From contig JAHDDC010000006.1 of assembly GCA_020629545.1 (NCBI GenBank), positions 1 through 44,681 of the forward strand: a stretch of DNA of 44,681 bases, in the 5' to 3' direction. Position 1 is the first letter of the stretch; every line of letters begins with the position of its first letter. Below are positions 26,534 to 42,441 of the stretch, piece after piece. The position numbers and the translations under genes are program-made. The stretch comes from Hellea sp. GTDB lineage: Bacteria; Pseudomonadota; Alphaproteobacteria; Caulobacterales; Maricaulaceae. Under the pieces are notes generated by a model. It was given only the letters and a program-made list of their open reading frames with translations. It was not told the origin of the DNA and did no database searches.

Positions 26534-27331
26534 TCATCGCCCCTTCCAAATTGGTTCTCTCTTTTCAGCAAATGCTTTGAAACCTTCAATCACGTCTTCA
26601 CTTCCGTAAAGAGTGTCAACGGTTTGGAGTTGACGAGTTGTGACCTTGTTTAGTGTATCTTGAAACTTTTCATCTTCCGCTTCACGCACTATTTCTTTGA
26701 TGGCGGCCATGACCAGTGGGGGTCCCGCTGCAATTAGGCGGGCAATTTCCCAAGCTCTGTCCAAGAGCTTATCGGCTTCAACGATCTCATTAACAAATCC
26801 CCATCGGTTGGCCTCTTTTGCGTCGAGCCATCGACCGGTTAAGAGCATTTCCATAGCGATGTGATACGGAATTCGTTTAGGTAATTTGATGGAAGCAGCG
26901 TCTGCCACAGTGCCGGAATTTATTTCGGGCAGGGCGAATGTCGCATGCTCAGCAGCAAGGATAATATCTGTTGATAGCGCGATTTCCAGTCCGCCTCCGC
27001 AGCAAATTCCATTCACCGCGGCAATAATAGGTTTGTTGAGACGCGGGAGCTCTTGCATGCCGCCAAATCCGCCGACGCCATAATCGCCATCAACTTCGTC
27101 GCCATCGGCAGCCGCTTTTAAATCCCAGCCCGGGCAAAAGAACTTTGGCCCGGCAGCTGTAATAATTGCGACCCGCATTTCCGGGTCGTCACGAAAATCT
27201 TTAAAAATATTTCCCATGATCCGGCTAGTCGCCAAATCAATTGCATTGGCCTTGGGGCGGTCGATTGTGACCTCGAGAATATGTCCGTCTTTTCGTGTTC
27301 TTATGGGTCCATTCTGATCTGTTGCGGGCAT
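26534..27331 (-). CDS. caiD: Crotonobetainyl-CoA hydratase / carnitinyl-CoA dehydratase-like protein
   Basis: A 265-residue crotonase-fold enzyme. It resembles Escherichia coli CaiD over the whole length: 'FFCPGWDLKAAADGD', 'NKPIIAAVNGICCGGGLEIAL' (oxyanion-hole glycines, cut here), and the very similar tail 'SEDVIEGFKAFAEKREPIWKG'. CaiD interconverts crotonobetainyl-CoA and L-carnitinyl-CoA. Start at 27331 (MPATDQ) is taken because GGAG lies seven bases upstream and the ligase gene ends one base before it. As last gene of the five-gene minus-strand set, it fits hydration of the enoyl-CoA made by the acyl-CoA dehydrogenase. Symbol used by analogy. Confidence 0.85.
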   Translation of the reverse strand: MPATDQNGPIRTRKDGHILEVTIDRPKANAIDLATSRIMGNIFKDFRDDPEMRVAIITAAGPKFFCPGWDLKAAADGDEVDGDYGVGGFGGMQELPRLNKPIIAAVNGICCGGGLEIALSTDIILAAEHATFALPEINSGTVADAASIKLPKRIPYHIAMEMLLTGRWLDAKEANRWGFVNEIVEADKLLDRAWEIARLIAAGPPLVMAAIKEIVREAEDEKFQDTLNKVTTRQLQTVDTLYGSEDVIEGFKAFAEKREPIWKGR

Positions 27332-27332
27332 T

Positions 27333-29345
27333 TTAATTCTCCGTTCTTTCAATTATAAGCGCGTCCAATACCATGGTTTGAGTTGGTCCTGCAGCCAGGG
27401 GATTGATATCCAGTTCGACTATGGAATCGCTATTGTTTTCAATAAATTGAGCAATTTTTTGGATGCTATAAACAAGTTCATTCATGTCTGTAGCGGGTTG
27501 TCCGCGATAACCACTAAAGAGCTTTCGAATTTTCAAACTCGACAAAGCATTTTCGATAGATCGAATGGATGTCGGTAATGTCAGAGTTGCAACATCATTT
27601 AATATTTCGGTCAATACGCCGCCCGCGCCAATAGTCAGGGTCCACACTCCTGTAGCGTCAACGACTGCTCCAACGATCAACTCGACGAAAGGCCCCTTCA
27701 TCATCTCCTCGATAAGTATATTTTCTGAAAGCGCTGAAATGTTTTTAACAGCTTGTGCGAGTTCAACATTCGTCTCTATTCCCAAAATTACGCCGCCGGA
27801 GTCAGTTTTATGGGCAATGTCTGTAGCCTTGACGGCGAGCGGGAAAGAAAGGGACGTAGCCTGATCGGTATCGGATACAATGCATCCGAGTGGGACCGGG
27901 ATGTCAGATGCAGCTAATTTTAGTTTGGCATCGTACTCCGACAATGTGCGTGTGTTTTCGCGCACCGTATCGGACATCAATACAGGCACGTTAAGGTCTG
28001 TTTGTTTTGCCGATAGAATGTCGATGACGCGCAAAGCGACCTGCATATCGAGAAGCGGAACGACCCCTCCATTGATGAACCGCGCAATGACATCTTCCTC
28101 TAGATTTTCGGGTAGGCTGCCAATCACGGCTGCTTTTCCGCCAGTATTAGCTTTGGCTCTTATAATGGCTTCGATCGCACAATCATGTCCTGCAGGGATG
28201 CATTTGTCGGCGCGAGGAATATCTAAAACAAAAAGGCTAATATCTGTTTTCTCCTTCATGACCGCCGAGAATACATTCGTCATCACGGGAACATCGCCCC
28301 AAATATAAGTGTGATAATCGAGAGGGTTGGCGAGGTCGACTTTATCACCAAGAAGTCGGTTAAGTGTTTCGAGTCCCGGGGAGCTAAATCCAGGATATGT
28401 CAGTTCCGTGTCTCGAGACAAATCTGACATTAGGCTGGCTTCACCGCCAGAACAACTGACAGATGTCACGCGATTACCTTCAAGAGGGCCCACAATATGC
28501 AGAAACTTCAGGCATTCTAAAAATTCAGCCAAAGTTTCGACTTCGTAGAAACCAAGCCTTTTTATTAAAGCAGACGCAACTTTATCACTCCCGGATAGTG
28601 AGGCGGTATGGGAGATCGCAGCTGATCGAGATTTTTCCGTTTTACCTGTTTTAAGAATGACAACAGCTATGTCTCGGGCCCGGGCTTCGCTTGCAAATCG
28701 TTCAAGCGCGCGAATATCGCCAAATCCTTCCAAATATAGGCCAATCGCTTTGATGCGTGGGTCGGCAAGCATATGGAGCCCAAGGTCAGCGATACCAATA
28801 ACAGCTTGATTGCCAATGGTGACAAGTTGCGCTATATCGAGGCCTCGTTTTTGCATCGTCAAATTTATGGATATATTTGACGACTGCGCAATTATCCCAA
28901 CGCCGTTCTCCACTTGTTGGCCGCCATGTTGATCTGGCCAAAGAGTGACATTTTCTAAGTAGTTTAAAAATCCATAGCAATTGGGGCCCAGAAAGGGCAT
29001 GTCTCCGGTTGCCGCGACCAATTCGTCTTGCAATTCAGCGGTGTCGGCTTCTGCAAACCCTGATGCAAAACAAATAGCTCCGCCTGCGCCCGAACTTGAA
29101 AGCTCTTTGATAACCGATACCGTCAATTTCCGATTTACTCCGATAAAGACAGCATCTGGGACGCCGGGAAGCCCATCTGTATCGGGGAAACACGGAAGCC
29201 CCAACATTTCGTGTTTCTTAGGATGGACCGGCCAAATTTCACCTTTGAAGCCCGATTTTTTGAGCTGTTCCAAGACGTTAGTCGACCAGCTCCCGCCATA
29301 AAGCGCGATTGATTTCGGGTTGAATAATCTGGATAGTCGGCTCAA
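27333..29345 (-). CDS. ADP-forming acid-CoA ligase (acetate-CoA ligase family)
   Basis: A 670-residue single-chain enzyme with an N-terminal CoA-binding domain (about 5-120), a succinyl-CoA-ligase-like flavodoxin region with the phosphorylatable His246 in 'ISHTASLSG', and a C-terminal ATP-grasp domain (about 460-665, 'PLAVKATDIAHKTDSGGVIL', 'GPFVELIVGAV', 'ELDINPLAAG'). Such enzymes form an acyl-CoA, ADP and phosphate, and can run reversibly. In this operon it probably activates gamma-butyrobetaine, crotonobetaine or carnitine, the job done by the AMP-forming CaiC or CoA-transferase CaiB in enterobacteria. AGGGGA lies four bases before the ATG. Chemistry confident, substrate inferred. Confidence 0.83.
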   Translation of the reverse strand: MSRLSRLFNPKSIALYGGSWSTNVLEQLKKSGFKGEIWPVHPKKHEMLGLPCFPDTDGLPGVPDAVFIGVNRKLTVSVIKELSSSGAGGAICFASGFAEADTAELQDELVAATGDMPFLGPNCYGFLNYLENVTLWPDQHGGQQVENGVGIIAQSSNISINLTMQKRGLDIAQLVTIGNQAVIGIADLGLHMLADPRIKAIGLYLEGFGDIRALERFASEARARDIAVVILKTGKTEKSRSAAISHTASLSGSDKVASALIKRLGFYEVETLAEFLECLKFLHIVGPLEGNRVTSVSCSGGEASLMSDLSRDTELTYPGFSSPGLETLNRLLGDKVDLANPLDYHTYIWGDVPVMTNVFSAVMKEKTDISLFVLDIPRADKCIPAGHDCAIEAIIRAKANTGGKAAVIGSLPENLEEDVIARFINGGVVPLLDMQVALRVIDILSAKQTDLNVPVLMSDTVRENTRTLSEYDAKLKLAASDIPVPLGCIVSDTDQATSLSFPLAVKATDIAHKTDSGGVILGIETNVELAQAVKNISALSENILIEEMMKGPFVELIVGAVVDATGVWTLTIGAGGVLTEILNDVATLTLPTSIRSIENALSSLKIRKLFSGYRGQPATDMNELVYSIQKIAQFIENNSDSIVELDINPLAAGPTQTMVLDALIIERTEN

Positions 29346-29355
29346 TCAGATCCCC

Positions 29356-30519
29356 TTATGCGCCAAGTGGCCGTAACAGGCTTCGGGATATGATGTGACG
29401 CTGTATTTCTGATGTACCTTCCCAGATTCGCTCTATTCTGGCATCGCGCCAAATGCGTTCAAGGGGTAAGTCGTCCATCAAGCCCATACCGCCATAGATC
29501 TGTATGGCTTCATCTGAAACAAAGGCGAGCATTTCGGAAGCTTTCAGCTTTGCCATCGCCATGTCCATGTCAGTGCAGGTTCCCTGATCATATTTCCAGC
29601 CCGCTTCACGCACTAATAGCTCAGCGGCCTTAAGTTCAGTCGCCATATCGGCGAGTTTGAATGAGACACCTTGAAACTTCCCAATTTTTTGATTGAACTG
29701 CTCCCGTTCAGCAGCGTAACTGACAGCGAGATCAAAAGCGCGTTCGGCACGGCCCAAGCATGTTGCGCCGACTTGCAAACGAGTGGCACCCAGCCAATCA
29801 TTTGCGACGTCAAATCCCTTGTGGACATCTCCTAGCATTGCACTTTGGGGAACACGGCAATTATCAAACTCTAAAATCGAATTTGTGTAACCCCGGTGAG
29901 AGACATTGTTGTAACCATCGCGTATGGTAAGGCCGGGGTGGTCATGATCGACAAAAAATGCTGAGATGAGCTTCTTTTTGCCGCGCGGTGTATCTTCTTC
30001 ACCGGTTGCCATGAAAGTGATTGTAAAATCGGCTGTGTCCGCATGGCTAATGAAATGCTTCGTGCCATTTAAGATCCAGTCGTCACCGTCTTTTTTAGCG
30101 CTAGCGGTCATGCCGCGTAGATCAGAACCAGCGCCTGGCTCAGTCATGGCGAGACAATCAGACTTTTCGCCGCGCAAACATGGCTCCAGATATTTTTTGC
30201 GTTGTTCTGCCGTTCCAGCACACAAGATGTTTGATGGGCGCGCGACACACGTCCAGTGCAGAGCATAGGATGTTTTCCCCAGCTCTTTCTCATATAAGAG
30301 CCAGGTTTGGGTATCGAGCCCAACACCCCCAAACTCTTCAGGGATGTTGGCGGCGTATAACCCGGCCTGTATTGCCTTTTTCTTGAGTTCAGCGGCTAGC
30401 TCAGGACGTAGATAACCCGTTTTCTCTAGCTCGGCCTCGTGCGGATAAAGTTCATTCTCGACAAATGCCTTAGTCGTTGCAACGATAAGTTCCTGTTCTT
30501 CACTTAGGGAAAAGTCCAT
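29356..30519 (-). CDS. Acyl-CoA dehydrogenase, probable gamma-butyrobetainyl-CoA dehydrogenase
   Basis: A 387-residue FAD-dependent acyl-CoA dehydrogenase. Family signatures are 'CLAMTEPGAGSDLRGM' near residue 120 and 'RIERIWEGTSEIQRHIISRS' near the end, with catalytic Glu367 in 'WEGT'. 'YGGMGLMDDLPLERIWRDAR' completes the C-terminal pattern. In this operon the natural reaction is desaturation of gamma-butyrobetainyl-CoA to crotonobetainyl-CoA, as done by CaiA or the later-described bacterial butyrobetainyl-CoA dehydrogenases. Electrons would go to ETF, whose genes are not in the window. One base separates it from the upstream stop. Class certain, substrate inferred from the neighbours. Confidence 0.88.
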   Translation of the reverse strand: MDFSLSEEQELIVATTKAFVENELYPHEAELEKTGYLRPELAAELKKKAIQAGLYAANIPEEFGGVGLDTQTWLLYEKELGKTSYALHWTCVARPSNILCAGTAEQRKKYLEPCLRGEKSDCLAMTEPGAGSDLRGMTASAKKDGDDWILNGTKHFISHADTADFTITFMATGEEDTPRGKKKLISAFFVDHDHPGLTIRDGYNNVSHRGYTNSILEFDNCRVPQSAMLGDVHKGFDVANDWLGATRLQVGATCLGRAERAFDLAVSYAAEREQFNQKIGKFQGVSFKLADMATELKAAELLVREAGWKYDQGTCTDMDMAMAKLKASEMLAFVSDEAIQIYGGMGLMDDLPLERIWRDARIERIWEGTSEIQRHIISRSLLRPLGA

Positions 30520-30520
30520 T

Positions 30521-31933
30521 TCAGCTCTCCAGGATCAATGGCAAATTTCGATGTAATTCCGCCAATTCAGTTTTTCGCTTTAAAACATCCGCGCGCGGGG
30601 TTGATGACTTCCGACTGGTAAGATCAACGTGCAGTAAGAATTGTTCACAAACAGCCAGGACATCTCCATTTTTGCGGCACATTTTGTGGGCCAGTTTCAG
30701 CTTCTTGCCGTCACCAATCAGAATTTGAGAATCTACGATAAATCGATCACCCGCAACACATTCGTCCAAATATTTAATTTTCGTTTCAACGGTGAAATAG
30801 CTTAGCCCGTCTTTAATATATTCTGCGTCGGCACCAATAGCGATCATGACCGCATCCGCGGCATCAGAAAAGACCTGCCCATAGCGGCTCTCATTCATAT
30901 GCAAGTTATAGTCAGTCCAATCTATTGGAACACTTCGCGAAACTGAACGGATATAGGATGCGTCAGCGTGTGTCCTCTCCACGAGGCTAGAATCCATTTT
31001 GTTCAGAAGAGCGCCGGTTCCCCAGTTGCGATTTTTAAGAGCGCGCATAATCGCAACAAGATTATCATCGCGTTTACGTTCAAGCTCCCGAATTGAATAT
31101 GCACCGGATTGCGCATCGGATTGATCCGCGATCTGCTGAACAAGCTCATCTGTGAGGTCAGGGACGTCCATGAGTTTTGTCCATGGCCATTTCAGCGCGG
31201 GACCAAATTGGGCCATAAAATGCGCCATTCCGGCTTCTCCGCCGGCAACGCGATAAGTCTCGAATAGACCCATTTGCGCCCAACGAAGTCCAAACCCATA
31301 GGTAAAGGTTGCGTCGATTTCCTCTGTGGTCGCAATGCCATCATTGACGAGCCAAAGGCCTTCTCGCCAAACAGCTTCTAATAGGCGATCCGCAATATGT
31401 GCATCTATTTCTTTGCGAACATGAAGCGGGTAGTTCCCGAGCTTTGACAGTATCTGCTGGGCTTTTTCAACTGTTTGAGTTGGCCCAACTAATTCTACCA
31501 ACGGAATAAGGTAAACCGGATTAAATGGGTGAGCCACAATAATGCGCTCAGGTGTTGACCGACCTTCATGTAGTTCGGAGGGTTTGAACCCTGAGGTGGA
31601 CGATGCAATTATCGCGTCAGGGGGGCAATGGTTTTCAATTTGGCCCAAAATTTTTTGTTTTAGAACCAGCCGTTCTGGTACTGATTCTGCAATCCAGGAG
31701 GCTGTCTCGACGGCAGCTTCCAGATTGTCATGAAAGGTCAATTGTCCTTCTTTGGGTAGTGCGTGGTCATAAATACCAGGAACAGAGCGTCGGGCATTCT
31801 CCAAAACCTCGCCAATTTTCCGTTTAGCTTCGGGATCAGGGTCGAAAATGTTGACGTCCCATCCCATAAGTAAAAAGCGGGCAGCCCATCCGCCGCCGAT
31901 AACGCCCCCGCCGATAATCGCCGCAACTGGCAT
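30521..31933 (-). CDS. lcdH: Carnitine 3-dehydrogenase fused to betainyl-CoA thioesterase
   Basis: A 470-residue fusion. Residues 1-318 are a 3-hydroxyacyl-CoA-dehydrogenase-like domain: Rossmann 'GGGVIGGGWAARFL' (8-21), 'SSTSG' and 'AHPFNPVYLIPLVELV' with His135 and Glu147, as in L-carnitine dehydrogenase, which makes 3-dehydrocarnitine with NAD+. Residues about 330-465 form a hot-dog domain ('VPIDWTDYNLHMNESRYGQVF' region, cut here). In known carnitine loci this domain is a betainyl-CoA thioesterase, separate or fused. Together with the upstream BKACE gene this gives carnitine to glycine betaine. The start overlaps the BKACE stop by one base. The symbol follows usage for carnitine dehydrogenase. 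Confidence 0.9.
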   Translation of the reverse strand: MPVAAIIGGGVIGGGWAARFLLMGWDVNIFDPDPEAKRKIGEVLENARRSVPGIYDHALPKEGQLTFHDNLEAAVETASWIAESVPERLVLKQKILGQIENHCPPDAIIASSTSGFKPSELHEGRSTPERIIVAHPFNPVYLIPLVELVGPTQTVEKAQQILSKLGNYPLHVRKEIDAHIADRLLEAVWREGLWLVNDGIATTEEIDATFTYGFGLRWAQMGLFETYRVAGGEAGMAHFMAQFGPALKWPWTKLMDVPDLTDELVQQIADQSDAQSGAYSIRELERKRDDNLVAIMRALKNRNWGTGALLNKMDSSLVERTHADASYIRSVSRSVPIDWTDYNLHMNESRYGQVFSDAADAVMIAIGADAEYIKDGLSYFTVETKIKYLDECVAGDRFIVDSQILIGDGKKLKLAHKMCRKNGDVLAVCEQFLLHVDLTSRKSSTPRADVLKRKTELAELHRNLPLILES

Positions 31934-32841
31934 CAGGCTGGTGCTCTCTTGGTTAAGCCGAGCTTCTCGCGCACCTGAGCCGGGCTCATAATATTTGCGC
32001 CCATTCGTTCGATAATTCCGACCGCTTTTTGAACTAGGCTTTCATTGGTCGCTAAAACGCCTTTCTCAAGCCATATATTATCCTCAAGGCCGACCCTGAC
32101 ATTGCCGCCTGCAAGAACAGCCGCCGCAACAAAGGGCATTTGGTTGCGTCCGATAGAGAAAGCAGACCAATTCCAATCTGAAGGTATGTTGTTTACCATG
32201 GCCATGAATGTGTTCATGTCATCTGGAGCTCCCCATGGAATTCCCATACAAAGCTGCACCAAAGCTGGGCTGTCTAAAATTCCGTCTTCAACGAGTTTTT
32301 TAGCATACCAAAGATGCCCTGTATCAAAGGCTTCAATTTCTGGCTTCACGCCGAGCTCTGTCATCATCTTTCCCATGGTTTGCAACATGCCAGGCGTATT
32401 GGTCATAACGTAATCGGCTTCCGCGAAGTTCATGGTGCCGCAGTCCAAAGTACATATTTCTGGAAGACAATCCGCAATGGGTTCCATCCGGTCTTCGGCG
32501 CTGCCCATATCGGTGCCTTCTTGCAAAGGTAACGGAGATGACGGCGGTCCAAAATACAGGTCTCCGCCCATGCCGGCTGTTAGATTCAGGACAACATCTG
32601 TTTTCGCGTCTCTTATGCGTTCCGTCAATTCGCGATATAATTTGGGGTCCCGTGACGCGACGCCCGTTTCGGGATCACGTACATGGCAGTGGACGATAGC
32701 TGCGCCCGCTTGAGCGGCTGCTATTGCGCTATTTGCAATTTGCTCAGGAGATCTAGGGACATGATGGCTTCTATCCTGTGTGCCGCCTGAGCCCGTGACA
32801 GCGCAAGTTATGAATACATCCTTATTGATTTGCAGCGGCAT
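31933..32841 (-). CDS. BKACE (DUF849) protein, probable 3-dehydrocarnitine cleavage enzyme
   Basis: A 302-residue zinc-dependent beta-keto acid cleavage enzyme. The metal ligands are in 'IVHCHVRDP' (His51, His53), and 'VRVGLEDNIWL' near residue 258 holds the conserved Glu. BKACE enzymes condense a beta-keto acid with acetyl-CoA, releasing acetoacetate and a new acyl-CoA. The carnitine-locus members convert 3-dehydrocarnitine and acetyl-CoA to betainyl-CoA and acetoacetate. Being first in an operon with the dehydrogenase-thioesterase fusion and divergent from a CdhR-like regulator makes that specificity likely. AGGGGAAG precedes the ATG. Confidence 0.9.
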   Translation of the reverse strand: MPLQINKDVFITCAVTGSGGTQDRSHHVPRSPEQIANSAIAAAQAGAAIVHCHVRDPETGVASRDPKLYRELTERIRDAKTDVVLNLTAGMGGDLYFGPPSSPLPLQEGTDMGSAEDRMEPIADCLPEICTLDCGTMNFAEADYVMTNTPGMLQTMGKMMTELGVKPEIEAFDTGHLWYAKKLVEDGILDSPALVQLCMGIPWGAPDDMNTFMAMVNNIPSDWNWSAFSIGRNQMPFVAAAVLAGGNVRVGLEDNIWLEKGVLATNESLVQKAVGIIERMGANIMSPAQVREKLGLTKRAPA

Positions 32842-32920: not shown

Positions 32921-33895
32921 ATGCAGAAAAGGACTCATGTTAAACCGGCTTCAAATACGATCAAGATCGTTTTGTTCGACGGATTTTCGAATCTCTGCTT
33001 GGCTAATGCGATAGAGCCATTGCGCGCCGCAAACAAATTTTTAGGTCAGGACACTTATGCATGGAGAGTATTGACCCTAAATGGCGATCCAGTTCAATCA
33101 TCAAGTTCTCTCACAATTATGCCAGATGGTGCATTGTCAGAAATAGGTGATGCGGCCCGAATATTTCTCATTTCGAGTTATGGATATGATGATTTGTATT
33201 CAGAGGCATTAGGCCAAATATTGCGAACACGTCTAAAAAGCGGGTCGCATATTTTTGGTTTTGATACGGGAGCTTGGCTTATGGCAAAAGCCGGCCTTTT
33301 AAAACGCAGGAAAGCGACGATCCATTGGGATGTTCTATCGCGTTTTGAGGAACAGTTCTTGTCAACAAATGTTATCAATCAGCCTTTTGTTGAAGACGAA
33401 AATGTTACGACGTGCGGAGGCGCTATGGCAACATTCGATCTGATGCTTGGGCTGATTGGCGAAGATTGCGGACCTGAGGTGAGATATGATGTTGCCCGTC
33501 TTTTTGTTCCGATTTTATCGCACAACAGAACATCACTCACTAACGATGTGTCGGAATCGAGTCTGACGAGTAGGGCTCTTTCGATAATGCAAGATAACAT
33601 TGAAACGCCCATTGGCTTAACAGAGCTCTCACAGCAATTGGGTCAGTCGGCCAAAACAATTGAAAGAGCTTTCAAGCGGGATTATAATGTTCCCACTGGA
33701 CAAATTTATAAACGATTGCGGTTAAGTTCTGTTCGAGAGATGGTTGAGAATACGAGCCAAAATTTTTCCGTCATAGCTGTCCGGTCTGGCTATAAAAGCG
33801 CTAGCGCTATGACCCGAGCTTTTGTTTCTGAATTTGGATACACACCCAGCGAACTCAGAAGTTCGGTGGAAAAGTTTCACGCTCCGAGGTACTAG
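32921..33895 (+). CDS. cdhR: GlxA/CdhR-type transcriptional regulator
   Basis: A 324-residue regulator with an N-terminal DJ-1/PfpI (class I glutamine amidotransferase-like) ligand domain (about 14-190: 'KIVLFDGFSNLCLANAIEPL', 'GFDTGAWLMAKAGLLKRRKAT', shortened) and a C-terminal AraC-type DNA-binding domain (about 215-318: 'IGLTELSQQLGQSAKTIERAF' cut, then 'FSVIAVRSGYKSASAMTRAF'). CdhR of this architecture activates carnitine dehydrogenase genes in pseudomonads; GbdR is a sibling. Position, divergent from the BKACE operon, supports the same role. No ribosome-binding site is visible before ATG 32921, and no alternative start exists nearby, so leaderless or weak translation is possible. It may also control the plus-strand genes after it. 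Confidence 0.85.
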   Translation: MQKRTHVKPASNTIKIVLFDGFSNLCLANAIEPLRAANKFLGQDTYAWRVLTLNGDPVQSSSSLTIMPDGALSEIGDAARIFLISSYGYDDLYSEALGQILRTRLKSGSHIFGFDTGAWLMAKAGLLKRRKATIHWDVLSRFEEQFLSTNVINQPFVEDENVTTCGGAMATFDLMLGLIGEDCGPEVRYDVARLFVPILSHNRTSLTNDVSESSLTSRALSIMQDNIETPIGLTELSQQLGQSAKTIERAFKRDYNVPTGQIYKRLRLSSVREMVENTSQNFSVIAVRSGYKSASAMTRAFVSEFGYTPSELRSSVEKFHAPRY

Positions 33896-33984: not shown

Positions 33985-34983
33985 ATGTCGCATAAAACGA
34001 TGAATGTTGAAGAAATTCACGCACTGGCAAAGTCAACTTTGATGCGCCACGGGGCTGATGATGTAAATGCAACGGCTGTAGCTGATATTATTACAATGGC
34101 CGAACGTGATGGATGCCATTCACACGGCTTGATGCGATTGGCGGGTTATGCCGCCACATTGAAAAGTGGCAAAGTTAACGGAAAAGCTCGTCCGACTGTC
34201 AAACAACTCGCGCCAGCGGTTGTTCAAGTCAATGGTCACAATTGTTTCGCGCCTTTAGCTTTGGAAACAGGGCGACCACATTTGATTGAAGCCGCTAAGA
34301 CCTGTGGTGTCGCCATAATGCCTTTGATTGGAATACACCATTTTGCGGCGCTATGGACCGAGGTTGAACCGATTGCCGAAGCCGGCCTCGTCGGGTTCGC
34401 TTGTACTTCTTACAAACCTGCCGTAATTCCTGCAGGTGGTACCAAAGCGCTCTACGGTACGAACCCGATAGCGTTTGGATGGCCGCGAAAGGATGGCCCG
34501 CCAATGGTATTCGATCAGGCGTCATCTGTTATGGCTCGCGGTGAAGTTATGTTGGCAGCGAGGGAAGGGCATGAATTGCCAGAGGGCGTGGGCGTCGACT
34601 CTGATGGGAAACCATCGACTGACCCGAACGAAGTGCTCAAAGGCGCCTTACTGGCATTTGGGGGCTATAAAGGGTCGTCGATAGCGATGATGGTTGAACT
34701 ACTGGCTGGTGCTATGACTGGTGAAAGCTTCAGTTTTGAAGCTGCGGCCCGTGACAATGGAGACGGGGGGCCCCCGCAGGGCGGAGAGTTTTTAATGGCG
34801 ATTGATCCGACACTGGTTCGTGGTGATGACGGCTGGGCTGATCACGCTGAGACGTTTTTCGACAAAATCCAAGAACAAGACGGCGCGAGATTACCTGGAA
34901 TGCGTCGGCACCGAAATCGCGCAAATTCGGGTAAAGGTGTCGAAGTGTCGACAATAGTCCTTGATAAAATTGCTGACATCTAG
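33985..34983 (+). CDS. Ldh-family NAD(P)H-dependent oxidoreductase (DpkA-like)
   Basis: A 332-residue member of the malate/L-lactate dehydrogenase-like fold. Seen: 'GCHSHGLMRLAGYAATL' with the catalytic His, 'KALYGTNPIAFGWPR', and 'FGGYKGSSIAMMVELLAGAMTGE', which I shorten. The last is most like delta1-piperideine-2-carboxylate / delta1-pyrroline-2-carboxylate reductases (DpkA). These reduce cyclic imines or 2-oxo acids with amines, including N-methylated ones. AAAAGGAA precedes the start; a 10-bp palindrome GTAATATTAC (33911-33920) lies in the 89-base gap after cdhR. First gene of the module B plus-strand operon. The cyclic imine assignment is inference. Confidence 0.82.
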   Translation: MSHKTMNVEEIHALAKSTLMRHGADDVNATAVADIITMAERDGCHSHGLMRLAGYAATLKSGKVNGKARPTVKQLAPAVVQVNGHNCFAPLALETGRPHLIEAAKTCGVAIMPLIGIHHFAALWTEVEPIAEAGLVGFACTSYKPAVIPAGGTKALYGTNPIAFGWPRKDGPPMVFDQASSVMARGEVMLAAREGHELPEGVGVDSDGKPSTDPNEVLKGALLAFGGYKGSSIAMMVELLAGAMTGESFSFEAAARDNGDGGPPQGGEFLMAIDPTLVRGDDGWADHAETFFDKIQEQDGARLPGMRRHRNRANSGKGVEVSTIVLDKIADI

Positions 34984-34997
34984 CGATAGGATTTAGA

Positions 34998-35594
34998 GTG
35001 AAAGAACTTAGAAAACTTGTTCGTTATCAAGAAACGGTTTTTATCGAAGGCGGCAAAGAGGCACCTGAGCCTTGGGTACAAAGTGCTGTTGCGGCGATTG
35101 TGAAAAATCCTTGGGCAGGAAAGTTCGTTGAAAATCTACGTCCAGAGATATTACGTCTTAGTCCGGCGCTAGGCGAACTTATGACAGCTGAGCTTATGGA
35201 CCTTAGCGGTGGTAAAGACCATGTTGAGGCTTTTGGTAAAGCCGCAATAGTTGGCGTTGACGGAGAAATCGAACACGCCTCTGGTTTGATTCACACCCTG
35301 CACTTTGGCAATCATTTCCGAAAAGCTGTTGAAGCCAAAAGCTATTTGTCTTTTACTAATCTTCGCGGAGGTCCGAATACGCCGATTGCCGTGCCAATGA
35401 TGGATAAAAATGAACCCGGAAGACGATCTCACTATTTAACAGTCCAGTTTTCAGTTGTAGATGCTCCAAGGGCCGATGAAATTTTGCTGGCCATAGCGGT
35501 TGCAAATGCTGGTCGGCCTCATCACCGGATAGGCGATAGGTATCAGGATTTGAAGGATTTGGGTCATGACGTGGACAACCCGGCCGCGGTCTAA
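34998..35594 (+). CDS. DUF1185 ('amino acid synthesis') family protein
   Basis: A 198-residue protein of the AA_synth/DUF1185 family, whose biochemical role is not established despite its name. Typical pieces are 'FIEGGKEAPEPWVQSAVAAI', shortened, 'KNPWAGKFVENLRPEI', 'GKAAIVGVDGEIEHASGLIH' and 'DAPRADEILLAIAVANAGRPHHR'. It is often found with LLM monooxygenases, hydrolases and aldehyde dehydrogenases in proteobacterial degradation loci, from general knowledge. The start is GTG 34998, with AGG seven bases upstream and no better ATG. It overlaps the next gene by 29 bases, a long overlap pointing to tight coupling. Confidence 0.85.
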   Translation: MKELRKLVRYQETVFIEGGKEAPEPWVQSAVAAIVKNPWAGKFVENLRPEILRLSPALGELMTAELMDLSGGKDHVEAFGKAAIVGVDGEIEHASGLIHTLHFGNHFRKAVEAKSYLSFTNLRGGPNTPIAVPMMDKNEPGRRSHYLTVQFSVVDAPRADEILLAIAVANAGRPHHRIGDRYQDLKDLGHDVDNPAAV

Positions 35595-36360
35595 GCTAAA
35601 ATCCGGGTTGTCCTACTTCCAGGCGGGTCGCGGACCATTGGTTCTTTTGGTTCATGGCGTGGGTTTGAGAGCAGAAAGCTGGAACCCTATTTTTGATCAG
35701 CTAAGTCAATCTTTTGAGGTTCTCGCGATTGATTTACCGGGACATGGGTTTTCAGATAATGCGCCTGAAGACATAACAACTGTTGGTGCAATAACTGACT
35801 TTATAAAATTAAGCCTTGGTCGGAAGCCCGATTTCATAGCCGGGCATTCTCTTGGCGCACTTGTTACGATGGATTGGGCGTCCCGTTTCAATAGTGGGTT
35901 GCGCGCGGTCGTTGCTCTAAACACTATTTTTGAGCGTCCTGCCAAGGCATCAGAAGAGGTCAAGGCTCGTGCTGAAAGCCTGGCTGATAGGACGGAAATA
36001 GATCCTCGTGTAACATTGAATCGATGGTTTGATGACGTCGATAGTCCGGAAAGAGCTGCGTGTTTTGACTGGCTAACATCAAATCGGATTGATCAATATG
36101 CCCAGTTTTACAAAATATTTGCCCATTGCGATGGAGTGGACCCCATTTCCGCGGCAAATTTTGAACAACCAGCACTGTTTTTAACTGGCAAGAATGAACC
36201 AAATTCAACGCCTGCGATGTCGGAGCGATTGGCTAGTCTGGTCGGGAATGGTAAGTCTTATATTGTTGAGGATGCAGCACATATGGCACCAATGACTCAC
36301 TCAAAAATCGTTGGGTCCGAGATTGCTAATTTTTTCATTCATCATTCTGGGGATGTCTAG
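35566..36360 (+). CDS. Alpha/beta hydrolase
   Basis: A 264-residue alpha/beta-fold hydrolase. The oxyanion-side 'LLVHGVGLRAESW' (about 27-40), nucleophile elbow 'AGHSLGA' with Ser95, and the C-terminal His239 in 'EDAAHMAPM' give a complete triad apart from the acid, probably an Asp or Glu near residue 210 ('TGKNEPNS'). Such enzymes act on esters, lactones, or enol-amides formed after ring opening. The ATG at 35566 has AAGGA eight bases before it and lies inside the DUF1185 gene. It directly abuts the LLM monooxygenase, so it may process that enzyme's product; substrate unproven. Confidence 0.88.
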   Translation: MTWTTRPRSKLKSGLSYFQAGRGPLVLLVHGVGLRAESWNPIFDQLSQSFEVLAIDLPGHGFSDNAPEDITTVGAITDFIKLSLGRKPDFIAGHSLGALVTMDWASRFNSGLRAVVALNTIFERPAKASEEVKARAESLADRTEIDPRVTLNRWFDDVDSPERAACFDWLTSNRIDQYAQFYKIFAHCDGVDPISAANFEQPALFLTGKNEPNSTPAMSERLASLVGNGKSYIVEDAAHMAPMTHSKIVGSEIANFFIHHSGDV

Positions 36361-37398
36361 ATGGAATTTTCTTTATTTGTTCATATGGAACGGACCAATG
36401 ATCGACAATCACATAGCGAGCTCTACCAAGAGTTTTTGGCATTATGCAAAATAGCAGATCAAGGTGGAATGCGCGCTGTATGGACCGGTGAGCACCACGC
36501 TATGAATTTCACGATTGCACCCAATCCATTTATCAATCTCGTCGATGTAGCTCGCCATACAAAGAATGTACGTCTAGGCACAGGTACTATCATCGCTCCG
36601 TTTTGGCACCCGATTAAGCTCGCGGGCGAAGCTGCAATGACAGATATCATCACCGATGGGCGATTGGAATTGGGTATTGCCCGGGGTGCTTATTCCTATG
36701 AATATGAACGCCTTATGCCGGGCATGGACGCGTGGGAAGCGGGTTTACGTTTGCGGGAAACGGTTCCAGCCCTCAGAAAATTATGGAAAGGCGACTACGC
36801 CCATGACGGAGAATTTTTTAAGTTTCCGTCGACAACATCTTCGCCGCAACCTGTACAAGACAATGGACCGCCATTATGGATTGCTGCAAGAGATCCAAAT
36901 AGCCATGAATTTGCTGTCGCAAATGATTGTAATGTACAGGTCACGCCACTTTGGAACGGAGATCCAGAAATTGAAACCCTGATGGAACGTTTCAAGACTG
37001 CCAAGGATCTACACGGAAAAGGGAAGTCACCGAAAATCATGCTTTTACATCATGGATATGTTGCAAAAGATGATGAGGATGCTCGAGCTGCGGCCAAAAC
37101 GCTAGGGGGGTTCTATTGTTATTTTGGTGCGTGGTTTATGAATAAACGTCCTGTTAGTCTGGGCCTGATTGAGCAATTTACGCCAGAAGAAATAGCGGGT
37201 AATGAAATGTATTCACCGGAAGTCATGATGAATAATATGGCAATCGGGACTGCTGATACGGTCGTTAGACGTCTCAAAAAATATGAGGCGATGGGGTATG
37301 ATGAATATTCACTTTGGATCGATTCAGGTATGACCTTTGAGCAAAAAAAGGCTTCACTGAGCCGGTTTATCGATGATGTTATGCCGGCGTTTGGATAG
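36361..37398 (+). CDS. LLM-class flavin-dependent monooxygenase
   Basis: A 345-residue bacterial-luciferase-like TIM-barrel protein. Marks: 'MEFSLFVHMERTN' start, 'WTGEHHAMNFTIAPNPF' (the E-H-H stretch of the family), 'LGTGTIIAPFWHPIKLAGE', 'DGRLELGIARGAYSYEYERL' and 'GTADTVVRRLKKYEAMGYDE'. Class members oxidise substrates with O2 and reduced FMN supplied by a separate reductase; no flavin reductase gene is in this operon. Related enzymes (trigonelline TgnB and pyridine oxygenases) open N-heterocyclic rings. Start directly follows the hydrolase stop. Class sure; ring-opening role inferred from neighbours. Confidence 0.88.
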   Translation: MEFSLFVHMERTNDRQSHSELYQEFLALCKIADQGGMRAVWTGEHHAMNFTIAPNPFINLVDVARHTKNVRLGTGTIIAPFWHPIKLAGEAAMTDIITDGRLELGIARGAYSYEYERLMPGMDAWEAGLRLRETVPALRKLWKGDYAHDGEFFKFPSTTSSPQPVQDNGPPLWIAARDPNSHEFAVANDCNVQVTPLWNGDPEIETLMERFKTAKDLHGKGKSPKIMLLHHGYVAKDDEDARAAAKTLGGFYCYFGAWFMNKRPVSLGLIEQFTPEEIAGNEMYSPEVMMNNMAIGTADTVVRRLKKYEAMGYDEYSLWIDSGMTFEQKKASLSRFIDDVMPAFG

Positions 37399-37400
37399 TT

Positions 37401-38882
37401 ATGACAAAACCCTTTTTCCAGCTTTATATTGATGGTGAGTTTCGTAACGGAAGCGCGGGACAAAAAATGGAAACTCGCAACCCCGCTAATGGAGAGGTTT
37501 GGGCGGAGTTCGCGTGCGCGTCGACATTAGACGTCAATCAAGCCGTTGAGGCTGCGAGGCGTGCACAAAATGATCCCATATGGCGCGATATGCTACCCAC
37601 GCAGCGTGGTAAGTTATTGTACAAACTAGCTGAATTGGTCGCAGAAAAAGCAGTTCAGCTCGGCGAAATCGAAACGACCGATAGCGGAAAGCTTCTGGCA
37701 GAAACATCTAAACAAACTGGCTATGTGGCGGATTACTATCGTTACTATGCTGGCCTTGCCGACAAAATTGAAGGGGCGGTATTGCCCATTGATAAGCCCG
37801 ATATGCATGTATTTACAAAGCCCATGCCAATCGGAATCGTTGCTGCAGTTGTGCCATGGAATGCGCAGATGTTCTTAGCTGCTACTAAAATTGGACCAGC
37901 TCTGGCAGCCGGCTGTAGTGTCATTGTAAAGGCGTCGGAAGAAGCTCCTTGTGCTATGCTCGAATTTGCCAAGATATTCGATCAAGCCGGATTCCCAAAA
38001 GGCGTATTTTCGGTGATTACAGGCGATGCGGAAAATTGCGCCATTCCTTTAACGAGTCATCCGGATATTGATCGCATCGCGTTTACGGGCGGGCCGGAAA
38101 CTGCGAAACACGTTATTCGAAATTCAGCTGAAAACTTCGCCGTTACGAGTCTGGAGCTTGGCGGCAAGTCTCCGATTATTGTATTTGACGACGCAGATGT
38201 TGAAAGTGCTGCAAATGGGCTCATTGCAGGAAATTTCGGGGCGTCTGGGCAATCCTGCGTAGCTGGGTCGCGTGGTATTGTGCATCGGTCTATTCTCAAT
38301 AAATTGATCGGCGAAATTAGCAAAAAATGTAAAGACATTGTGGTCGGTGACCCACTTGCGGCGCAAACCCAATTAGGGCCTTTATGCACTAATGCTCAAA
38401 TCGAAAAGATTGAAAAGACTTTGTCCAAAGCGAAAACGCAAGGCGCGATCATTCATTTCGGAGGTTCTCGTCCAGATGGTCTGGATTCCGGGAATTACTT
38501 TGCGCCCACGTTAGTTGAATGTCCAAATGCCGACATAGAAACTCTGAAGATTGAAATGTTTGGGCCTGTCATGTCGCTTATGCCATTTGATACTGAGGAA
38601 GAGGCGATCGCATTGGCCAATGATACGATTTATGGCTTGGGGTCGGGTGTTTTTACGAGCAATGTAGCGCGTGCACATCGGGTTTCTAAAAACATCAATG
38701 CGGGAATTTGTTGGATTAATACCTACCGTGCAATTTCTCCAATTGCGCCATTTGGAGGCATCAATCAATCCGGGTATGGCCGAGAAGCCGGACTGCAAGC
38801 TATCCAAGATTACACTCGTACAAAAACGACATGGATCAATACGTCAGACAAGCCGATGTCGAATCCGTTTGTGATGCGGTGA
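37401..38882 (+). CDS. NAD(P)-dependent aldehyde dehydrogenase
   Basis: A 493-residue ALDH-superfamily enzyme with catalytic Cys286 in 'ASGQSCVAGSR', general base Glu252 in 'LELGGKSP', and the cofactor segment 'VVPWNAQMFLAATKIGPAL', including Asn154. The 'KP...GIVAAVVPWN' pattern is of the betaine-aldehyde/4-hydroxymuconic-semialdehyde type group. In this operon it probably oxidises the aldehyde or semialdehyde released by ring opening. Its stop shares one base with the BCCT start, so transporter and enzymes are co-expressed. Confidence 0.93.
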   Translation: MTKPFFQLYIDGEFRNGSAGQKMETRNPANGEVWAEFACASTLDVNQAVEAARRAQNDPIWRDMLPTQRGKLLYKLAELVAEKAVQLGEIETTDSGKLLAETSKQTGYVADYYRYYAGLADKIEGAVLPIDKPDMHVFTKPMPIGIVAAVVPWNAQMFLAATKIGPALAAGCSVIVKASEEAPCAMLEFAKIFDQAGFPKGVFSVITGDAENCAIPLTSHPDIDRIAFTGGPETAKHVIRNSAENFAVTSLELGGKSPIIVFDDADVESAANGLIAGNFGASGQSCVAGSRGIVHRSILNKLIGEISKKCKDIVVGDPLAAQTQLGPLCTNAQIEKIEKTLSKAKTQGAIIHFGGSRPDGLDSGNYFAPTLVECPNADIETLKIEMFGPVMSLMPFDTEEEAIALANDTIYGLGSGVFTSNVARAHRVSKNINAGICWINTYRAISPIAPFGGINQSGYGREAGLQAIQDYTRTKTTWINTSDKPMSNPFVMR

Positions 38883-40477
38883 TGAAAACGTTCAAAATAA
38901 AAACCGAAACGACTGGTTTCTATGCGGGGGTCAATAAATTTGTAGCGTTGATTTCTAAAGCATTGCTTTTAATGCTTGTGGCATGGGCAGCTTTATTCCC
39001 AGAAACTGCACAATCTGGCTTTGGCAAAATCACCGGATTTATAAATCAATATTTCAATGGCTGGTATTTGTGGGTGATGGTTTTCTATCTCTTGCTGTGC
39101 GTTATTTTGGGCTTATGGCCAAAAACGGGCCGGGTTCGCCTAGGGAATGTTGACGAGAAACCTGAATTTTCGCGTATTTCTTGGTTCGCTATGCTTTTTG
39201 GGGCTGGGATCGGCATTGGTATGTTGACTTATGCAACCGCTGAACCCGTTTATCATATGGCATCAAATCCAGATATCATAATTGGGGACGTAGAAGCCAA
39301 CTCGGTAAGTGCGATTAGGTCTTCAATGAAATGGTCTTTCCTTCATTGGGGGCTATCAGCCTGGGGATGCTATGCTATGATTGGACTCGCGCTAGCTCTA
39401 CCGACATATCGCAAGGGAATGCCGTTAACGATACGTACTGCTTTAGCCCCTCTTTTTGGACGATATCTAGGCGGGTGGTTTGGGCATGTTATTGACATTG
39501 TCGCCGTCATTGCTGCGGTTACCGGTGTGTCGGTGGCCATTGGGCTTGGTGTTTCACAATTTGCGTCAGGGTTGTTCAGTCTGACAGCAAACCCAAGCCT
39601 GATGAATGCCGATGGAGACCCAGCGTTATGGGGTATGATTTTCTCATTGGTTATTATCGTGAGTGTTTCGACTTTTTCTGCGCTATCAGGCGTCGGAAAA
39701 GGTATTAAATGGCTTTCAAACCTCAATCTGTTTTTGTCATTTTTCTTATTGGGTGTGTTACTCATATTCGGTTCTGCGAGTTTTGTATTCAAGGCTTTTG
39801 GCCTCGGTCTAATTGATTATATCCGAGAGCTACCATCTCTGGTCACAAATGTTTACGATAGTGACGCAATGCCTAATGGCGAGGCATTGGCAGATTGGCA
39901 GGCATCTTGGACGATATTTTATTGGGCGTGGTGGATTGCATTTGCGCCATTTGTGGGCGTGTTCTTTGCCCGTATTTCCAAAGGACGTTCAATCCGTGAA
40001 TATGTACTGGCTACGCTTATCGTACCAAGTCTTATGTGCTTTACATGGTTTGCTATTGCAGGCGGAACTGCCATTTGGTTAGAGCTGTCTGGACAGGCAG
40101 CCGGGGCCATTAATGATGCAGGGCAATCTGCAAAACTATTCGCGACTATTGAGGTTCTCTTTGGGTCAGTGGGTGCGAAATTTATGGCGTGCATCGTAAC
40201 GATTTTGCTTTTGACTTATCTGGTAACATCCGCCGATTCAGCTATTTTGGTCATCAACACAATATTGGGCGCTGGCCGTATCATGCCGAAAATTAGATAC
40301 CATATTGTTTTTTGGGGCTTGGCGTTAGGCGTAGTCATAGCTGTGCTTTTAAAGACAGGAGGCTTGGATGCGATTTTTGCAGCTATGTTGATCGGGGCTC
40401 TTCCATTTTCAGTGGTTATGTTCCTAATGGGATTGTCACTGATTAAATCGCTCTTTATCGACGGGTCTTATCGCTAG
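38882..40477 (+). CDS. BCCT-family transporter (module B)
   Basis: A 531-residue betaine/carnitine/choline-type transporter. TM3 has 'GAGIGIGMLTYATAEP', and the signature 'WTIFYWAWWIAFAPFVG' begins at Trp343. Termini are short, as in the module A transporter, to which it is clearly paralogous: both start 'KTETTGF(F/Y)xGxNK' and end in 'GALPFS' followed by a last helix. Start ATG 38882 is taken because it overlaps the aldehyde dehydrogenase stop and gives the conserved N terminus; the frame from 38831 would run inside that gene. It converges with the FrhB-like gene, overlapping it by 23 bases. Probable uptake system for the substrate of module B. Confidence 0.92.
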   Translation: MKTFKIKTETTGFYAGVNKFVALISKALLLMLVAWAALFPETAQSGFGKITGFINQYFNGWYLWVMVFYLLLCVILGLWPKTGRVRLGNVDEKPEFSRISWFAMLFGAGIGIGMLTYATAEPVYHMASNPDIIIGDVEANSVSAIRSSMKWSFLHWGLSAWGCYAMIGLALALPTYRKGMPLTIRTALAPLFGRYLGGWFGHVIDIVAVIAAVTGVSVAIGLGVSQFASGLFSLTANPSLMNADGDPALWGMIFSLVIIVSVSTFSALSGVGKGIKWLSNLNLFLSFFLLGVLLIFGSASFVFKAFGLGLIDYIRELPSLVTNVYDSDAMPNGEALADWQASWTIFYWAWWIAFAPFVGVFFARISKGRSIREYVLATLIVPSLMCFTWFAIAGGTAIWLELSGQAAGAINDAGQSAKLFATIEVLFGSVGAKFMACIVTILLLTYLVTSADSAILVINTILGAGRIMPKIRYHIVFWGLALGVVIAVLLKTGGLDAIFAAMLIGALPFSVVMFLMGLSLIKSLFIDGSYR

Positions 40478-41708
40478 TGTTGATTTTGATTGCACGGCGA
40501 TAGGCGCCATTTTTTTGATCCTGATATTCAGACTTTGAAAGTCCTTTGGAAAGTGTTTCTAATCTCAAACCTGTTGTTTCAGGAACGAGTTTTCCAGCCG
40601 CTTTAATTCCTGCATATCGTGCCCCCATAGTATTTTTCTTTGTCACTTGATGAGGTTGTGTGGAGGAAAGGTAATCGGGCGAAACGGGTTTACCAACTTT
40701 CAAATAACCCGCGTGAATGGCGGCCGCCATCAACTCCATTCCAGCCCAGCTTCGGATAATTACGGAATTAGTTCCGGGATCAGTCCTAGATAATTCGCGA
40801 TTAGGACTAGCATTAGGCCAAGTATCTGCAGCCGCAATATCTGCAGATTCTCCGATACCATCCGGGCAGATTTTGCATCGAAAAGGTAGCGACCAAGCAC
40901 TTTCATCTTCTCCCCAAAAGTCAAGATAGTGCCAGTCTCGACGAGTTCCATTTCTAAAGTGAGCCGTGGTTGGCCCTGGGCATCCTTTTCCGCGATAATT
41001 AAAAGCTCTGATGTCGTTTGCATTGATTTGGGATTTACTCAAAAAATCCTGCATGGACTGACCTGGCATGAACCCGCCGCATACAGGCGTAAGCCAGTAT
41101 TTTACAAGTTCATTCACGCGCGCGTCAATTTTTGCCAAGTTACGCAACGCGCTGACATCACAAGGCTTTCCGATTATAGCAAATGGTTTTTCAAGCGCTA
41201 AAATATCATCGATATCTTTCAGCATGGCTGTTGGTCCGTATCGCGATCCGGCATTTGAGAGTACGGCTTCAGCGGAGTGGCTCAATACATGTTGGCCTTG
41301 GGTTGGAACGGATTCCGAGGGGCCAACATGTAACACAAATTTTACGCGCTCACTTTCAACAAGAAACATTCCCAGAGCTGTCAGAACGCCGCCAGTCGCG
41401 CCCTCAAATCTTACCTTGGGATCGGCAGCCCATGCTAATACAAGGTCTTGATAAGGACCCCATACTGGGTCATGATTTTCGGCTTGGTCTAAAAGCTTTT
41501 GAGGAAGCCCTTCAACGCGAGTGCCAGGGCAAGTTTGGTAAATTTTGTCCACCAGACTTTCAGAAAGTTCTCCGTTGACCTGAGGGCGGAGCTCAAAGTC
41601 TTTTGAGATTTCCATATTAATTTTGCCATTGCCAGCGATGCTTGCGCAAAGGCCGCATCCAATGCATAGACCGTCATCAATTATCTTTTGAAATCGCGCA
41701 TTAGCCAC
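40455..41708 (-). CDS. FrhB/FdhB-family iron-sulfur flavoprotein ('coenzyme F420 hydrogenase beta subunit' family)
   Basis: A 417-residue protein with an N-terminal [4Fe-4S] ferredoxin-like site (Cys15-x2-Cys18-x2-Cys21, plus Cys60 in 'TCPG') and FrhB N- and C-terminal domains: 'GATGGVLTALGMFLV', 'GKPCDVSALRNLAK', 'NYRGKGCPGPTTA', and 'FRCKICPDGIGESADIAAADTW' (cut; two more Cys). Family members are flavin-dependent reductases or dehydrogenases that take electrons from ferredoxin or F420. No F420 biosynthesis gene is seen, so F420 use is doubtful. The start is GTG at 41708 (no ATG is available ahead of the cluster) and overlaps the sulfotransferase-like gene by eight bases. Reaction unknown. 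Confidence 0.83.
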   Translation of the reverse strand: MANARFQKIIDDGLCIGCGLCASIAGNGKINMEISKDFELRPQVNGELSESLVDKIYQTCPGTRVEGLPQKLLDQAENHDPVWGPYQDLVLAWAADPKVRFEGATGGVLTALGMFLVESERVKFVLHVGPSESVPTQGQHVLSHSAEAVLSNAGSRYGPTAMLKDIDDILALEKPFAIIGKPCDVSALRNLAKIDARVNELVKYWLTPVCGGFMPGQSMQDFLSKSQINANDIRAFNYRGKGCPGPTTAHFRNGTRRDWHYLDFWGEDESAWSLPFRCKICPDGIGESADIAAADTWPNASPNRELSRTDPGTNSVIIRSWAGMELMAAAIHAGYLKVGKPVSPDYLSSTQPHQVTKKNTMGARYAGIKAAGKLVPETTGLRLETLSKGLSKSEYQDQKNGAYRRAIKINTSDKTRR

Positions 41709-42441
41709 GGATGCGATGTTTCCGCAAATGTTCGTAATGCGGTCTCATTTTCTCATAAACTATTTTGACCCGGTCTGGAGCCTCTTCAATATCAATATAC
41801 TGAGTGCGTTTCTGTGGTTTTAGGCCATTGGAGTTTCGTAAGTTAGCGTGGAAAGAACCACCATCCCACCAACTGACTTCGTCGCGTTTGCCCGGATCCC
41901 ATGATAATGCCTCTTCGATAAACGGAATTCCAACGCTCTGGCACCAAAGGTCTATAATTTTGAATGGGTCTTCTAGCATATCATCGCTATCAATAACGGG
42001 TGGAGCTTTTCCTTGTTTTTGCGCGATGCGGTCAAATAATTCGCGTTGGTCCGGAAAGCCCACTTCTTTCTCATGAAAGTCTGGCCATTTGTCGTACATT
42101 GATGTGATTGTTTTAGCAGGATCACGAATAAGAAATGAATGCGTAAAGAGGTCGGCGCGTTTGTCCGTCCACATGTGATCTATATAAAGCGGAAAGTCTT
42201 TTATGAAAACCGAAGACTTACGGGCGCGTTCTTCCAGATCCAGCCATACCCCGTCAAGTGTAAGGCCGGGCGTCCGAACACTTTGCGCTGTTAGGCGTGG
42301 CCAAAGTGGATTTTCGCCCTGATACCAAGCCTCCCCGAAAGGCTCGTGAAGGCATTCCAGATCACCGCGTTGACGCATCATCCATTCAAACGCCGTTGAT
42401 GTAGAACGGGGCACGGCCCACAACGCTATAATTTTAGGCAT
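41701..42441 (-). CDS. Sulfotransferase-like protein
   Basis: A 246-residue P-loop protein. It begins with 'IIALWAVPRSTSTAFEWMM', the 5'-phosphosulfate-binding loop, then 'LHEPFGEAWYQG'; a possible 3'-phosphate motif is 'FLIRDPAKTITSMYDKW' (about 103-119). This subgroup is also found as an N-terminal domain on plant branched-chain aminotransferase-like proteins, and databases sometimes mislabel it accordingly. PAPS use has not been shown for the subgroup, to my knowledge. AGAGGAA precedes the start, and both ends overlap neighbours by eight bases. Acceptor unknown. Confidence 0.78.
   Translation of the reverse strand: MPKIIALWAVPRSTSTAFEWMMRQRGDLECLHEPFGEAWYQGENPLWPRLTAQSVRTPGLTLDGVWLDLEERARKSSVFIKDFPLYIDHMWTDKRADLFTHSFLIRDPAKTITSMYDKWPDFHEKEVGFPDQRELFDRIAQKQGKAPPVIDSDDMLEDPFKIIDLWCQSVGIPFIEEALSWDPGKRDEVSWWDGGSFHANLRNSNGLKPQKRTQYIDIEEAPDRVKIVYEKMRPHYEHLRKHRIRG

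Follow-up and report, generated by a model that had tools for sequence, protein, structure and literature searches.

In the sea, homarine and trigonelline serve as osmolytes and as nutrients for bacteria. The tgn route of trigonelline catabolism, as described by Perchat et al. in 2018, reportedly consists of cleavage of the C5-C6 ring bond, an aldehyde dehydrogenase (ALDH) step and a hydrolase step that frees methylamine, formate and CO2, followed by succinate-semialdehyde dehydrogenase (SSADH); a homarine catabolic pathway is said to have been published by Ferrer-Gonzalez et al. in Nature Microbiology in 2026. In the sources cited, trigonelline degradation starts with ring opening by TgnA/TgnB (PMC8269262), TgnB has the accession Q6F9F6 (PMC11354265), N-methylglutamate dehydrogenase (Mgd) takes part in homarine catabolism (PMC13390433), and DpkA, known from D-lysine degradation, performs the reductive methylamination of 2-oxo acids (PMC6110843). 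Here we describe a six-gene operon at positions 33985-40477 of a 44,681-nucleotide stretch of DNA (the window) from Hellea sp. (GCA_020629545.1, contig JAHDDC010000006.1), headed by a gene for a DpkA-like protein of the Ldh_2 family. On balance, we lean slightly towards reading it as a tgn-type operon of derived form, with an N-methyl-imine exit, whose substrate would be an N-methylpyridinium carboxylate, either homarine or trigonelline.

All six genes are intact and lie in one co-directional run (Table 1), and the gene calls of an earlier reading made from the letters alone (the sequence-only reading), namely an LLM flavin-dependent oxygenase, an alpha/beta hydrolase, an ALDH, a DUF1185 protein (AA_synth), a DpkA-like reductase and a BCCT transporter, all hold. 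Successive genes are separated by +14, -29, 0, +2 and -1 nt, the last value assuming that the BCCT gene starts at 38882; the listed open reading frame (ORF) begins at 38831, and the ATG at 38882, with a 1-base overlap with the ALDH stop, is the likelier start. Because the spacing is only -29 to +14 nt, the arrangement suggests one coupled operon that would be co-transcribed. Like the tgn cluster of Acinetobacter baylyi ADP1, it encodes an LLM oxygenase, an ALDH and a hydrolase of the same operon family, and AA_synth is also found in Acinetobacter clusters. Unlike the tgn cluster, it has no adjoining flavin reductase, GntR regulator (nor a LysR regulator), NCS1-type permease or SSADH, and carries BCCT and Ldh_2 instead.

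The predicted activity of the core, TgnBCD-type opening of an N-methylpyridinium carboxylate ring, is well supported and quite probable. None of the 130 residues conserved to at least 97% in 91 relatives is changed in the window LLM, and these include all 22 at which a different residue is fixed in a more distant LLM family. Its identity to the LLM of seven Moraxellaceae clusters taken as Acinetobacter, a reference other than ADP1 TgnB itself, averages 65.5% (maximum 66.7%), the corresponding means being 54% for the ALDH and 30% for the hydrolase. A grouping of the LLM with sulfonate or alkane monooxygenases, which the sequence-only reading had named as evidence against ring opening, was not seen, the protein scoring below the NCBIfam cut-offs of both SsuD (28 bits, cut-off 518) and SfnG (47 bits, cut-off 383). 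Among 104 solved relatives of the hydrolase, N-acetylaminomethylene-succinate hydrolase (3kxp) ranks fourth (E 1.6e-10) and a deformylase (4l0c) eighth (E 1.4e-8), and their reactions resemble the proposed hydrolase step. The serine of GHSLG, a Glu and the histidine of AHM align with relatives and are the presumed catalytic residues. The AA_synth model matched only the two DUF1185 structures 3byq and 2qtp in Foldseek at E < 0.001, and the fold gave no further lead to its function. The AA_synth family is linked to N-heterocycle catabolism, because tandem AA_synth genes adjoin genes for 6-hydroxynicotinate reductase, together with UPF0280 and molybdopterin-binding protein genes, on two Roseobacter plasmids (L289 and L290, from Sulfitobacter and Sagittula).

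A genome scan with the window LLM gave at least 584 confirmed relatives, and the best 80 were kept for locus comparison; 93 clusters were compared in all, the window included, with AA_synth counted where it lay within 6 kb of the LLM gene. Several of the loci, among them L048 and L074, are short, and the absence of a neighbour is therefore a minimum statement. L130 (genome G306) has no whole LLM, with N in the LLM-ALDH stretch, and does not appear in the trees; L129 lacks both ALDH and hydrolase; and G308 and G001 (locus L002) appear to be one genome. In the typical cluster, AA_synth is followed by hydrolase, flavin reductase, LLM and ALDH and accompanied by a divergent regulator, which among the best 80 loci is GntR in 61, LysR in 16 and labelled as neither in three. 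Since AA_synth adjoins the LLM in 92 of the 93 clusters (the exception is L003), the genes are not a chance grouping. Loci with a GntR regulator are termed T type here, the 16 LysR loci together with L063 H type, and the Psychrobacter loci with GntR and BCCT P type. The distribution of the cluster is patchy, as the LLM was present in only 4 of 149 genomes of the set of relatives, all from the genus of the window (its own genome included; 10 genus members listed).

The same operon family includes Acinetobacter and rhizobial clusters, in agreement with the tgn-like ring opening proposed by the sequence-only reading. Psychrobacter-family genomes carry one LLM each in 35 of 299 cases, 65-69% identical to the window LLM, and among 20 Moraxellaceae regions fetched SSADH occurred in 19 and CMD in all 20; there is also an ORF that by eye resembles an outer-membrane protein. 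One region (L152) is Psychrobacter-like, and most of the others were labelled Acinetobacter because the A. baumannii cluster (L154) is identical in order: GntR-AA_synth-hydrolase-flavin reductase-LLM-ALDH-permease-u389-SSADH-CMD. The LLM on Sinorhizobium meliloti pSymA is 65% identical to that of the window, and its cluster ends in SSADH, as do the other rhizobial examples. The fuller Acinetobacter and rhizobial clusters, with GntR, transporters and SSADH in addition, resemble the tgn pathway, and the Acinetobacter ones match its reported gene list.

The flavin reductase gene is missing from the window cluster, as had been claimed. Among the best 80 loci it is separate in 68, fused in eight and absent in four; the fused form is a single ORF of 577-641 aa with the hydrolase (L005, L013, L032, L051, L052, L057, L060 and L078). 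As it is missing from L002, L039, L076 and L080 and also from the window and the same-genus L130, its absence looks like repeated loss. The best flavin reductase match in the own genome is 42% identical over 151 aa and lies on a different contig. In clusters of Psychrobacter and Arenicella, too, the ALDH gene has a BCCT gene downstream of it. The window BCCT is 44-48% identical to these proteins, and its closest match outside its own genome among labelled loci (53%) belongs to a different block (L283); it may thus not be exclusive to the ring-opening pathway.

The nearest relative of the window cluster is L002, from a Hellea sp. metagenome-assembled genome, with an LLM 82% identical. The concatenated tree (41 of the 93 clusters) placed the window and L002 with H and P against T (SH-aLRT 100), and in its best version these two, together with L019, stood next to H (support 87), neither H nor P being rejected (p-AU 0.079 and 0.086). 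The LLM tree (IQ-TREE) grouped the window with Psychrobacter and L019 (95/86); in FastTree, that LLM region was unsupported (0.013) and the ALDH fell with the LysR type at 0.344. In the hydrolase tree (55 clusters), the window joined the LysR type (88/77), a grouping with P not being rejected (p-AU 0.080). The window ALDH is on average 56% identical to T-type, 73% to H-type and 72% to P-type proteins. The presumed catalytic acid of the hydrolase is Glu in H and the window and Asp in T and P, and of the sites that set H apart from T and P together, the window shares the H state at 3/3 in the hydrolase, 2/4 in the ALDH and 1/1 in AA_synth. The GntR or LysR regulator type was considered as a proxy for the substrate and is suggestive, but was set aside as the trees conflict.

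Some of these data would fit a distinct homarine-specific branch that unites the window with the LysR-type clusters and may be the hom operon already published. Of the diagnostic residues, the window has the H state at 45/48 in the ALDH and 9/10 in the hydrolase; homarine should end in 2-oxoglutarate or N-methylglutamate; and SSADH or CMD was found in none of the 17 H-type fetched stretches, whereas one or the other was found in 14 of the 52 T loci in the best 80 and in 8 of 9 P loci (CMD in eight, SSADH in six). The name homABCDER would fit five genes plus a LysR regulator. The contrast for SSADH alone is weak (0/17 versus 7/52), however, and because SSADH lies near only seven T loci we consider such a branch rather improbable. 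The AA_synth residues are mixed (five H, three T and four neither, of 12), the concatenated tree settles neither H nor P, and the distant clusters L262, L263 and L270 also combine flavin reductase, ALDH, LLM and AA_synth, two of them with the hydrolase as well, and show an ORF of 284-304 aa in divergent orientation. CMD at contig positions 44789-45166 was tried as a tgn marker and rejected, since homologs with 75-81% identity occur in 16 of 17 LysR-type genomes, always outside the LLM loci fetched from them.

The operon could alternatively be an ordinary trigonelline (tgn) operon, in which succinate semialdehyde would be oxidized by another ALDH and Ldh_2 would serve an unrelated imino acid. 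This is possible, if tentative: the LLM belongs to the Acinetobacter/S. meliloti cluster family with all its conserved residues, and is T/P-like at residues 96, 137, 190 and 284; nearby SSADH is not universal even in T; and 4.8 kb downstream of the operon lies an ALDH (45321-46775) whose best NCBIfam models, below cut-off, are dioxovalerate and ketoglutarate-semialdehyde dehydrogenases. No SSADH ortholog was found in the own genome (91.6% complete), however, the query giving four ALDHs of at most 33% identity. The hydrolase likewise speaks against an ordinary tgn operon, with its H-like markers and its grouping with the LysR type, as does the gap of just 14 nt between Ldh_2 and AA_synth.

The DpkA-like nature of Ldh_2, asserted by the sequence-only reading, is borne out by its best solved relative, DpkA (1wtj, E 1.5e-77), followed at a distance by ureidoglycolate dehydrogenase (1.9e-38), and by a common HHFAALW stretch. 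The protein is nearer to DpkA than to malate, sulfolactate or ureidoglycolate dehydrogenases and is 48.6% identical to a protein annotated lhpD. Unlike DpkA, which PMC6110843 places in D-lysine degradation, Ldh_2 sits in a probable ring-opening operon. Relatives of Ldh_2 occur on 357 plasmid records, and five were inspected, three with hydroxyproline epimerase or proline racemase within about 6 kb and two mixed. Near the other 92 clusters a relative was seen once (L011, 39%), about 7 kb downstream of the ALDH's neighbour region.

The genome has a probable outlet for N-methylglutamate, and in this it is like the homarine pathway, to which the chemistry to N-methylglutamate would also fit. Contig C5 (L127) probably encodes Mgd, a call made from the identity of MgdA (74-76% to MgdA near synthase-type genes in L280/L281). 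A SoxBDAG-like set from C135:53837 was considered as Mgd and rejected, its MgdA identity being just 48-49%, and was taken as sarcosine oxidase; the NCBIfam soxA/soxB subfamily models match both the C5 and the C135 sets. No N-methylglutamate synthase was detected with PF01493, whose single own-genome match is a 1508-aa ORF taken as GltB; the same-genus G305, G306 and G001 have one match each, and 10 of 17 H-type genomes an additional short one. From their PF01493 match and the order of the genes, we read the short proteins near MgdA in L280/L281 as putative N-methylglutamate synthases. The C5 region (40000-58000) also holds a trimethylamine-methyltransferase-like protein and a TmpA-like dioxygenase (both below cut-off) and a 1189-aa PutA-like ORF (named by eye), and may be another betaine or N-methyl amino acid island.

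From gene identity, spacing, family membership and genome content as assembled, which were seen directly, we infer a substrate, catalytic steps and a role for Ldh_2. BCCT would take up the betaine, and the LLM oxygenase, receiving its reduced flavin in trans, would cut the C5-C6 bond of the ring. The resulting aldehyde would be oxidized by the ALDH, the alpha/beta hydrolase would take off the N-formyl group as formate, and Ldh_2 would yield an N-methyl amino acid by reducing the C=N-CH3 imine of a 2-oxo acid. With homarine, 2-(methylimino)glutarate would form directly and be reduced to N-methylglutamate, which Mgd, encoded elsewhere in the genome, would turn into glutamate and a C1 unit. With trigonelline, N-methylglutamate would have to come from free methylamine plus a 2-oxo acid, the only salvage open to Ldh_2, and succinate semialdehyde would need another ALDH. 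The choice is close to a tie, with neither substrate reaching even chances: homarine is attractive because 2-(methylimino)glutarate is the kind of alpha-imino acid that DpkA-type enzymes reduce, feeding Mgd, and trigonelline because of the family of the window LLM. Both had been named as candidates by the sequence-only reading; its third candidate, a proline betaine, is not supported, as nothing in the cluster points there.

Several observations weigh against a derived operon with an imine exit. TgnA/TgnB were argued to be unlikely to open homarine (PMC8269262), and 2-oxoglutarate is not among the DpkA substrates listed in the passages of PMC6110843 consulted. Of eight type-separating LLM residues, four are H-like, three T-like and one neither, and at positions separating T and P from H only two of six are H-like, the four others being T/P-like. 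None of 65 LLM-bearing genomes (one family sample) has two copies, as if all types share a substrate, although this count is weak (30 of 65 typed, 20 T and 10 H, with about two double carriers expected by chance). The top structural matches of the hydrolase are unspecified hydrolases and 3-oxoadipate enol-lactonase. Ldh_2 heads none of the other 92 clusters, some of which are short, which makes this a minimum search, and its role rests on one genome. Finally, the host assembly is 91.6% complete with 7.5% contamination, and absent genes may be absent sequence.

The minus-strand module upstream of cdhR is a carnitine module, with the ORF at 30524-31933 identified as carnitine 3-dehydrogenase (702 bits versus an NCBIfam cut-off of 592). 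The 3' end of cdhR lies 89 nt upstream of Ldh_2 on the same strand, and a scan of this gap, with promoter and terminator counts not above chance, gave no terminator-like site. The proximity of the carnitine module to the cluster would suit a Baeyer-Villiger style reaction, in which the LLM makes an ester from a ketone (for example, dehydrocarnitine) and the hydrolase cleaves it, and a distant LLM/ALDH/hydrolase/flavin reductase/AA_synth cluster (the family of genome G006) is joined to enoyl-CoA hydratase (ECH)- and carnitine-dehydrogenase (CDH)-like genes in 7 of 16 regions and to a BKACE-like gene in six (the distant set includes L257, L258, L261 and L265-L268). Such a reaction is nonetheless very improbable, as the carnitine 3-dehydrogenase and BKACE of the module would already consume dehydrocarnitine, the LLM family is also found together with SSADH and transporters at a locus without annotated carnitine genes (L155), and the similarity to diketocamphane monooxygenase is weak (E 2.8e-7). 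The distant ECH/CDH-joined cluster was considered as hom, with no obvious fit of the chemistry, and is possibly an undescribed ring-opening pathway. In L279 (G006:C5), distant-type ALDH, hydrolase, flavin reductase and AA_synth adjoin synthase/gmaS-like ORFs, the LLM being outside the fetched stretch, and G006 additionally carries an H-type cluster (L079).

Carnitine genes recur near the core elsewhere. Genes resembling cdhR, BKACE and CDH are within reach of five T-type loci, four from Leisingera plus L077; the same-genus G305 (L129) has LysR, AA_synth, flavin reductase and LLM, with cdhR and carnitine genes directly after them; and in the same-genus G308 the core cluster stands at the end of a carnitine island. 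These neighbourhoods support a common location, not common control, and the betaine-linked regulation that the sequence-only reading drew from the place after cdhR stays a hypothesis.

Table 1. Features of the operon and its upstream neighbours (window coordinates).
Feature	Position	Strand	Basis
Ldh_2, DpkA-like imine reductase, operon gene 1	33985..34983	+	PF02615, E 4.3e-96
AA_synth (DUF1185), constant member of operon family	34998..35594	+	PF06684, E 3.5e-67
Alpha/beta hydrolase, proposed TgnD-type enamide hydrolase	35566..36360	+	Solved relatives, aligned presumed catalytic residues
LLM flavin-dependent oxygenase, proposed TgnB-type ring opener	36361..37398	+	PF00296, E 5.1e-49
ALDH, proposed TgnC-type	37401..38882	+	PF00171, E 3.6e-154
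BCCT transporter, proposed betaine uptake	38882..40477 (start inferred)	+	PF02028
CdhR-like regulator (DJ-1/PfpI and HTH_18), neighbour	32921..33895	+	Domain matches
Carnitine module: ECH, CoA ligase, acyl-CoA dehydrogenase, carnitine 3-dehydrogenase, BKACE	26534..32841	-	Context

Beyond the carnitine module, a TonB-dependent receptor and a TPR-sulfotransferase adjoin it at 21914-26532, and in G308 (L128) ORFs of similar size separate the LLM core from the carnitine genes. On the other side, the block at 40455-44681 (minus strand) encodes FrhB-like, sulfotransferase and arylmalonate-decarboxylase (AMDase)-like proteins and a second BCCT (BCCT2), with CMD following at C135:44789-45166. Parts of it recur in H-type genomes, as CMD-BCCT-ALDH-FrhB in L283 and CMD-ALDH-sulfotransferase-AMDase in L285, which suggests a separate betaine pathway of its own.

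The operon is of a known, tgn-type kind, and with a homarine pathway already published in 2026 its novelty is moderate; in the open literature no paper on an Ldh_2-headed tgn operon was found, no search having been aimed exactly at that. What the derived tgn-type operon would add is a candidate enzyme between ring opening and N-methylglutamate. The specific proposal that the imine reductase of the operon replaces N-methylglutamate synthase, converting the ring-opened product of homarine directly to N-methylglutamate for Mgd, is a rather unlikely one: if true, an N-methylpyridine would be catabolized to glutamate by a route that bypasses free methylamine, GmaS and N-methylglutamate synthase. 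A gene set that separates homarine from trigonelline degraders, together with a nitrogen-retaining route of this sort, would change which genomes count as methylamine releasers.

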